Positions 8,516 through 9,758 of a stretch of 38,780 nucleotides of DNA are shown here, piece by piece (positions within the stretch are counted from its first letter, which is position 1; every line of letters starts with the position of its first letter). The position numbers were made by a program, and so were the translations under genes. The notes beneath the pieces were generated by a model that saw nothing but the letters and a program-made list of their open reading frames with translations, searched no databases and was not told where the DNA came from. Origin of the DNA: Verrucomicrobiales bacterium (GTDB lineage Bacteria; Verrucomicrobiota; Verrucomicrobiia; Verrucomicrobiales; DEV007); assembly GCA_016795505.1 (NCBI GenBank), contig JAEUHH010000073.1, positions 1-38,780 on the forward strand. Direction: 5' to 3'.

Positions 8516-8545
8516 GCGACTTAGATTTTTTAAAAATTTTCAGTC

Positions 8546-9397
8546 ATGAGCGACACCGAGCCCCAGACGCCCGAAACGCTGAAACCGTCGACCAAGACGT
8601 CGACGGTGCCGTTGAAGAAGGAAACTGTTCGTATCACCCTGCGGGCTCGTCCCGAGGAAACCGGTCCGGTGGCACCGAAAGGGTCCACGGCGCCGGTTCC
8701 GGCCAAGGGAGGTACCGCCGCCCCGGTGGTCGCTGTCGATGATACCGGTCCGACCCAGCCTGTGGTCGCTGTGCCAACACCGCCTCCGGCTGCTGCTGCG
8801 CCGCCTCCGCCGTCCACCATGGCGCCTCCGCCGCCCCGTCCGGGTGGGGCTCCGCCGCCACCGCCGTCCGCGGGTGGACCTCCGGCTCCGCCGCCGCCTT
8901 CCGCGCCTGCTCCGCGTCCGCCGGCACCGGCTCCCTCGGCTCCGGCCCCCGCTCCTTCTGCGCCTCCGGCTGCCGGAGCGCCGCCGGTGGCTCCCGGTGC
9001 CAAAACGATCCCGCTGGCGAAAAAGCCGGCCGCTCCGTCTCCGGGCGCCGCGGGTCCGGTCGGCGCCAAAACGATTCCTCTGGCCAAGGCGCCTGCTCCT
9101 GGTGGTCCCACGCCGGGCAAGCAGACTGCTCCGCTGCAAAGCGGCGGTGCCAAACCGCTCCCGAAAGCCACGGTCAAGCTGCAGCAGACCCAGCCCATGG
9201 CTGGTGGTGCTGCCGCGCCGGGCGGTGCTCCCTCGACCATCTCCAAGGCTCCCGACATCAAGTCGACCGCGGTCGTCGAGGAGGAGTGGGAGGAGGATTT
9301 CGAGGAGTCCGGCCTGATGCCCTTCTCCATCGTCGTCCTCCTGTTCGCGATTGCCGTGCTGGTGATCGAATTTCTCACCATGAACGCCGGCAAGTAA
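8546..9397 (+). CDS. Pro/Ala-rich disordered protein with C-terminal membrane anchor
   Basis: No known family is recognised in this 283-residue protein. Residues 1-35 are polar. Residues 70-150 are almost only Pro, Ala, Gly and Ser and must be disordered. Residues 245-254 are acidic (EEEWEEDFEE). A single membrane helix spans about 260-279, with Glu275 buried near its C-terminal end (VLVIEFLTM). With no signal peptide, it is probably a tail-anchored protein whose long arm lies in the cytoplasm. A short motif of the form T-[VIA]-x-L preceded by Lys recurs: residues 18-25 (TSTVPLKK), 25-32, 151-159 and 173-181 (GAKTIPLAK twice), 192-198 and 207-213. The next gene encodes a stand-alone copy of the anchor. 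A role as a tether or scaffold is speculation. Confidence 0.8.
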   Translation: MSDTEPQTPETLKPSTKTSTVPLKKETVRITLRARPEETGPVAPKGSTAPVPAKGGTAAPVVAVDDTGPTQPVVAVPTPPPAAAAPPPPSTMAPPPPRPGGAPPPPPSAGGPPAPPPPSAPAPRPPAPAPSAPAPAPSAPPAAGAPPVAPGAKTIPLAKKPAAPSPGAAGPVGAKTIPLAKAPAPGGPTPGKQTAPLQSGGAKPLPKATVKLQQTQPMAGGAAAPGGAPSTISKAPDIKSTAVVEEEWEEDFEESGLMPFSIVVLLFAIAVLVIEFLTMNAGK

Positions 9398-9448
9398 CGG
9401 TTGGTCCCTCCAGACCGCCCGATCATCGACCGATCCCTCCCTGATCCC

Positions 9449-9529
9449 ATGCCCTTCGCCATTCTCGTTCTGCTTTTCGCCGTCGCCGTGCTCGTCATCG
9501 AGTTCCTCACGATGTCGGCGGGGAAGTGA
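9449..9529 (+). CDS. 26-residue membrane microprotein copying the upstream anchor
   Basis: ATG at 9449 to TGA at 9527-9529 encodes 26 residues that are one transmembrane helix with a buried Glu. It aligns end to end, without gaps, with the last 26 residues of the preceding protein, with 22 identical. The DNA differs at 12 codons by synonymous changes (for example ATC/ATT, CTG/CTT, GAA/GAG, GGC/GGG) against four amino-acid changes, three of them conservative. This pattern indicates selection on the peptide and is the main evidence that so short an ORF is real. The spacing is 51 bp after the upstream stop. No Shine-Dalgarno sequence is visible, as for most genes here. It might pair with the larger protein's helix or act independently; the function is unknown. 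Confidence 0.75.
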   Translation: MPFAILVLLFAVAVLVIEFLTMSAGK

Positions 9530-9758
9530 CCCGCTTCGGAGGCCCTCTCAGGACCGTGCATGTGTCCGGATTTCCGGTGCGCCTTGGACTATGGCTGCCG
9601 GTGTTCGCCGATGACTCGCCGCGCACTTGACAGGCGGGGCAGGTGCTGGACACTTCCGGCTTTGTCACGGTCATTCCGCCGCGGGCGAGCGGTGCGGGGC
9701 GCATTTTTCGCGTTTTCGTAAGCTTCCCGGTGGCAGGATCGTCCATTTGTCCCTAGTC

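Follow-up and report, generated by a model that had tools for sequence, protein, structure and literature searches.

The window analyzed here is a 38,780-nucleotide stretch of DNA from a Verrucomicrobiales bacterium (contig JAEUHH010000073.1 of assembly GCA_016795505.1). In it, a 26-codon ORF lies between the gene for a Pro/Ala-rich membrane protein (the Pro-rich protein) and a thioredoxin gene (trx). The features that concern us are the following.

8546-9397, plus strand: Pro/Ala-rich protein of 283 amino acids with one C-terminal transmembrane helix (from the ORF list)
9317-9394, plus strand: C-terminal helix (anchor) of the Pro-rich protein, residues 258-283, first residue Met258, MPFSIVVLLFAIAVLVIEFLTMNAGK
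9368-9370, plus strand: Glu275, at position 18 of the anchor helix
9429-9448, plus strand: G-poor leader of the peptide gene (low in G over 93 homologues)
9449-9529, plus strand: 26-residue single-helix microprotein gene, one of 93 such ORFs, which reads MPFAILVLLFAVAVLVIEFLTMSAGK
9500-9502, plus strand: Glu18, the polar residue of the peptide helix
9814-10143, plus strand: thioredoxin (trx), the next gene (Pfam PF00085, E 6.4e-32)

The peptide and the anchor helix in the window

The peptide ORF starts after a spacer of 51 nt that follows the Pro-rich stop codon. When the peptide was aligned end to end with residues 258-283 of the anchor, 22 of the 26 residues were identical. Ten codons are the same, 12 differ synonymously, and four differ nonsynonymously; the original prediction had reported this match and its 12 synonymous differences, and we reproduced both. 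At the DNA level, 19 of 78 nucleotides differ, including 14 at third positions, and the Jukes-Cantor distances are 1.86 for synonymous sites, which is near saturation, and 0.096 for nonsynonymous sites. The best identity reached in 300,000 residue shuffles was 12/26. The peptides of five other genomes of the clade match their own anchors at only 8, 9, 12, 14, and 15 positions. By this comparison, so close a match between the two helices is peculiar to the window's genome. The peptide had been described as a duplicate of the anchor. The likeness is real in the window, but the peptide gene is older than that likeness.

Neither the peptide nor the Pro-rich protein had a match in Pfam or PHROGs, and NCBIfam returned nothing above cut-off; the short-protein model TIGR02808 gave the peptide 13.4 bits (E 0.054), below its curated cut-off of 40 bits. 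An antisense ORF of 343 codons (window 8530-9561, minus strand) spans the Pro-rich gene and the peptide and most likely arises from high G+C codon usage.

The Pro-rich protein (8546-9397) contains ten T-x-[PKR]-hydrophobic motifs (TVPL, TVRI, TIPL twice, TVKL, TQPM, and others), and its N-terminal TVPL/TVRI pair and its TVKL are conserved in relatives. T-x-x-hydrophobic is the kind of site bound by FHA domains when the Thr is phosphorylated. The repeated T-x-P-L type motifs may be binding sites, and by analogy the Pro-rich protein may be a multivalent ligand.

Distribution and conservation of the peptide ORF

We searched the phylum with the Pro-rich N-terminus as the query, and searched for the peptide within the order, which we infer to be Verrucomicrobiales. 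The N-terminal profile matched 32 of 387 phylum-wide genomes, with strong matches within one order only; the matching contigs include those of Prosthecobacter, Roseibacillus, and many Verrucomicrobiales MAGs. The C-terminal profile matched 280 of the 386 genomes of the order and 67 of the 74 genomes of the window's family, f1. We parsed 129 loci (68 from f1, 14 from f2, 2 from f3, 44 from f4, and 1 from f5). The 61 loci outside f1 were taken from the best-scoring matches among 213 genomes (280 less 67), and none came from family f6.

An ORF of 21 to 30 codons encoding a single helix followed the Pro-rich gene in 93 of the 129 parsed loci: 32 of 68 in f1 and 61 of 61 in f2 to f5. Ninety-one start with ATG and two with GTG, and the start lies 11 to 90 nt from the Pro-rich stop codon, the single f5 locus being the exception at 196 nt. 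Thus, homologues with a conserved place, start, and stop after Pro-rich genes, which had been proposed as a check, do occur. Before these counts were made, a chance hydrophobic ORF was taken out by hand in G065, start and distance filters removed further candidates in G023, G134, G138, and G185, and the peptide starts of G150 and G185 were placed by hand at the conserved start. The trx gene was downstream in 57/65 loci of f1, 14/14 of f2, 2/2 of f3, 6/44 of f4, and 0/1 of f5. Because this varies by family, the constant unit is the pair of Pro-rich gene and peptide ORF, not the trio.

In genus g19, which we take to be Akkermansia, six loci (L256, L257, L258, L259, L267, and L268) had no peptide gene between the Pro-rich gene and trx and lacked a Met where the helix begins. 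Their Pro-rich membrane proteins directly precede trx and have an acidic tail behind the helix. Therefore, the peptide is not required by every Pro-rich protein. The distribution is narrower than the suggestion of an ORF overlooked across the phylum would imply: strong matches to the N-terminus of the partner protein are found within one order only, a related Pro-rich protein from a different order adjoins trx with no peptide gene, and the Akkermansia-type loci are without the gene.

Three further loci or assemblies can be described here. L170, from another order of the class, encodes a Pro-rich protein with KKETVRITL in a 218-codon frame that adjoins trx, with no peptide gene between them. 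L263, in another genome of the class, has a short Pro-rich single-helix ORF between trx and a frame that by eye is ScpA-like. G085 has two Pro-rich loci of different kinds (L041 and L066), one of which gives the same values as G042, and this suggests that the assembly is contaminated.

Over 35 disjoint nearest pairs, the peptide ORF had a pN/pS of 0.278. This agrees with the earlier proposal that the peptide itself is under selection. In the same pairs, DNA identity was 0.80 in the peptide ORF, 0.58 in the spacer before it, and 0.57 in the 78 nt after it, and the ORF exceeded the preceding flank in 31/35 pairs and the following flank in 32/35. A buried Glu had been noted in both helices; it is at position 18 in each, and the aligned column holds N in 42, E in 27, Q in 12, A in 8, and S in 4 of the 93 peptides. 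That is, N, E, or Q is present in 81/93 and Ala or Ser in 12/93. In each of the 13 successive columns ahead of this one, a polar residue was found in 0/93.

A Shine-Dalgarno motif was found at 0/93 peptide starts, and it is rare at the neighboring genes too (4/49 trx and 2/113 Pro-rich starts). We therefore rejected it as the start signal. Extracts of PMC10783764 count Akkermansia muciniphila among organisms in which such motifs are scarce. On average, G made up a fraction of 0.071 of the 20 nt upstream of the peptide ATG and 0.243 of the 60 nt that follow the ORF, and the leader value was the lower one in 93/93 peptide loci. The G fraction was also low before Pro-rich starts (0.10, n = 113) and trx starts (0.12, n = 49). 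Inside the stand-alone peptide ORFs, third-position G was found in 21/380 of codons 2 to 7 versus 224/893 of codons 8 to 20. By these counts, the start mark in these Shine-Dalgarno-poor genomes is G depletion. The start signal expected at 9449 is present in this form, as a G-poor leader; there is no Shine-Dalgarno motif, which the neighbors hardly have either. From its conservation, the ORF is an old, conserved gene for a predicted single-helix membrane microprotein under purifying selection, with the start signature present.

Loci without a separate peptide gene

Among the parsed loci, members without a peptide gene are confined to the window's family (36 loci). Two of these, in G062 and G077, end at contig ends, and the first copy in G085 repeats that of G042, which leaves 33 gene-less loci: G001 to G003, G011, G015, G018, and 27 from genus g2. 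The cut locus of G077 has no internal Met. For G001 to G003, neither inspection by eye of the 420 nt after the Pro-rich stop codon nor an ORF scan revealed a remnant of a peptide gene. On an rpoB tree of 30 genomes, the best tree has six changes between presence and absence, three of them forced by well supported branches. The gene is present in most basal rows, which makes repeated loss the simplest explanation, although regain is possible. Across the tree, there was no significant link between presence of the gene and a Glu or Met in the anchor.

The Pro-rich protein ends no more than 8 residues from the helix match in 33/33 gene-less loci. Among loci with the gene, this is true of 16/32 in f1 and 0/61 in the other families. 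The motif E-E-S-G-[LV]-M-P that precedes the helix is also found in G014, in a protein whose C-terminus is longer, and simple fusion of the peptide gene into the Pro-rich gene is therefore no more than a possibility. A further locus, L205, has no peptide gene and the context GAAGAATCCGGACTTATG, and it matches no member of the set across the 63 nt compared.

All 33 gene-less loci have a Met at the first helix position. In f1 loci with the gene, our pattern found this Met in 12/32, and it missed one more, G007. The codons around this Met are strongly depleted of synonymous third-position G in the 33 gene-less loci: codons -7 to -1 contained 2 where 62.0 were expected, and codons 0 to +6 contained 4 where 30.8 were expected. 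The 12 f1 relatives that have both the gene and the Met gave 20 versus 19.5 expected and 10 versus 11.8 expected, respectively. Other bins in the gene-less group were at 0.68 to 1.44 of expectation (z of -3.6 to +4.3); because 27 of the 33 loci are from one genus (g2), kinship inflates the large z values. At the second codon before the Met, Gly is encoded by GGA in 31 of the 33 gene-less rows that have Gly (which include the contig-cut G062 and the G085 copy) versus 0/11 rows with the gene. The exceptions are G059 (GGT) and G062 (GGC), and mean background use of GGA is 0.20 in gene-less rows and 0.25 in rows with the gene.

The same region is unusually unfolded in gene-less loci. Compared with synonymous random versions, positions -24 to +24 had a mean folding z of +1.63 across the 33 gene-less loci, as against -0.58 across 26 gene-bearing loci of f1 and f4. 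By lineage, z was positive in 7/7 gene-less and 4/14 gene-bearing lineages. For both the G depletion and the folding analyses, the groups left out the first G085 copy and G062. Well supported branches allow three independent pairs, which is too few for significance; all three agreed in 137/200 pairings, two agreed and one tied in 63/200, and none disagreed. Weak cases among the gene-less loci are G011 (2 G observed, 3.6 expected) and G053/G055 (2 observed, 4.4 expected). The last two, L082 and L083 of g2, encode a divergent Pro-rich protein with LMII and a Gln in the helix; they have no peptide gene, and the start marks are partial.

The contig-cut G062 was without the marks (2 G observed, 1.9 expected; folding z of -2.19), which is the profile of a gene-bearing genome. 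A separate matching ORF, MLFAIIVFLMSAGVLALEVMTKMMSSGG, was then found in G062, starting at base 2 of contig C320. This ORF is on a different contig from the Pro-rich gene, with its adjacency to the Pro-rich gene and the contig join out of view, and kinship alone predicts the result because the nearest relative of G062 in the tree, G021, has the gene.

In the window's own Pro-rich gene, the codons before Met258 are G-rich, GAGGAGTCCGGCCTG, and the Met258 site is more folded than its synonymous random versions (z of -1.91). Therefore, the internal start looks disused in this genome. We also considered the GAGGAG before Met258 as a Shine-Dalgarno motif and rejected it, as it is the opposite of the G-poor start signature.

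We also scored anchors with a matrix built from 25 f1 peptides, with that of the window left out. In the derived clade, gene-less anchors scored above gene-bearing anchors (p of 0.006 for 10 versus 11 rows, uncorrected for kinship), which fits a single helix serving both as anchor and as peptide. The anchor of G011 scored low (17.0), and those of G053 and G055, which were outside this test, scored below zero. The marks around the helix Met strongly suggest internal initiation in the relatives that have no separate gene.

A microprotein paired with a larger membrane protein

We propose that the ORF encodes a conserved membrane microprotein that accompanies a Pro-rich, helix-anchored protein in five families of the order, that gene-less relatives make it from an internal start, and that the two helices assemble together. 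We give this reading a probability of about 0.62. In the gene-less relatives, the Pro-rich mRNA would carry an in-frame internal start, free of a Shine-Dalgarno motif, at the Met opposite the first residue of the peptide, and the peptide would thus still be produced from within the Pro-rich gene. The window would represent the split state, in which the separate copy is present and the marks of the internal start have been lost. The free helix might then assemble with that of the Pro-rich protein into a single membrane oligomer through the polar residue, which sits equally deep in both, and this mixed oligomer could determine how the Pro-rich domains are spaced, how many there are, or how stable they are. 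Of these steps, we infer joint assembly of the free and anchored helices. In general terms, this is probably a transmembrane microprotein with two addresses, a separate gene and a nested start, the latter written or kept by synonymous codons in genomes that lack the gene and erased in those that have it, and the pair probably forms one mixed-helix assembly.

The strongest alternative, which we still judge unlikely, is that the peptide serves another membrane complex and that the Pro-rich helix resembles it through a shared third partner. The peptide is present in f2 to f5, whose Pro-rich helices are more divergent and have an additional C-terminal stretch behind them, and a fixed polar residue would be well suited to contacting a third protein. 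However, the ORF follows the Pro-rich gene in 61/61 loci outside f1 even though the next gene changes (trx in 6/44 in f4), and in the 129 parsed loci its absence is limited to cases in which the Pro-rich helix is C-terminal. A different possibility is that the G-poor, unfolded stretch at the internal Met is not a peptide start and instead causes pausing before membrane insertion or is an RNA element. In its favor, the Met immediately precedes a transmembrane helix. However, relatives that have a similar protein, the Met, and the separate gene do not have the effect, and where it occurs it extends to both sides of the ATG, as at stand-alone peptide starts. We consider this explanation improbable. 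A recent local duplication that left a decaying, functionless copy of the anchor would fit the 22 of 26 residues common to both and the three same-genus relatives without a separate copy at the site, but it is very improbable, given near-saturated synonymous sites (1.86) with few amino acid changes (0.096), the start signature in the leader, and such ORFs in four other families, a family-wide conservation that contradicts it. Just as hard to believe is a role for the ORF as a translated leader controlling trx, with an unimportant peptide. Its place upstream of trx in much of the order might speak for this, but the amino acid sequence is under selection and f4 contradicts it, with the ORF present and no trx found next in 38/44 loci.

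Our proposal of a paired microprotein has partial precedents, although no published description of the peptide and Pro-rich pair was found among the matches listed from open-access papers. Among known systems, SctQ/HrcQ of type III secretion comes closest. In that system, the two-gene HrcQa/HrcQb form corresponds to the internal SctQ product. The available extracts of PMC8553256 describe a C-terminal SctQ/HrcQ product that arises by internal initiation with a Shine-Dalgarno-like GAGG, give HrcQa and HrcQb of Pseudomonas syringae pv. tomato as separate proteins, and conclude that the short SctQ product stabilizes and joins the large one. As there, we propose that a C-terminal part is additionally produced by itself, through an internal start or a separate gene depending on the lineage. 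However, the SctQ product is a soluble domain with a GAGG, whereas here it would be a bare 26-residue membrane helix with a start that has no Shine-Dalgarno motif, and the switching here is repeated within one bacterial family. The pair would work like SctQ/HrcQ and is not a member of that family, as neither protein had a Pfam match or an NCBIfam match above cut-off.

Dual-start phage holins such as lambda S107/S105 are two membrane products of one frame that begin two residues apart and act as a lysis timer. We likewise propose two same-frame membrane products set by the choice of start codon, but these would differ by about 257 residues instead of two, and the timing of lysis belongs to the holins. 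Plant and other eukaryotic microProteins, for which the terms cis-miP and trans-miP are in use, are small single-domain relatives that are thought to engage a larger protein, according to extracts of PMC7534434 and PMC5381583. The peptide similarly corresponds to one segment of a larger relative (22 of 26 residues of the anchor helix), but those proteins are eukaryotic and this is a bacterial transmembrane helix. Extracts of PMC10576120 describe MgrB as a regulatory single-helix protein that acts on the larger membrane protein PhoQ. Here too a tiny membrane protein goes with a larger one, on which it may act. We know of no nested form of MgrB-type proteins and of none that copies the helix of its target.

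Gene callers commonly skip proteins of 21 to 30 residues, and this finding adds a membrane protein family in that size range. Internal starts are hard to predict in bacteria in which Shine-Dalgarno motifs are scarce. If our reading is true, there would be natural replicates of a change from nested product to separate gene or the reverse, together with a sequence mark by which internal starts could be recognized in bacteria that rarely rely on Shine-Dalgarno motifs. A scan for G depletion could then uncover further in-frame products that are now hidden, in Verrucomicrobia and possibly in other Shine-Dalgarno-scarce bacteria.
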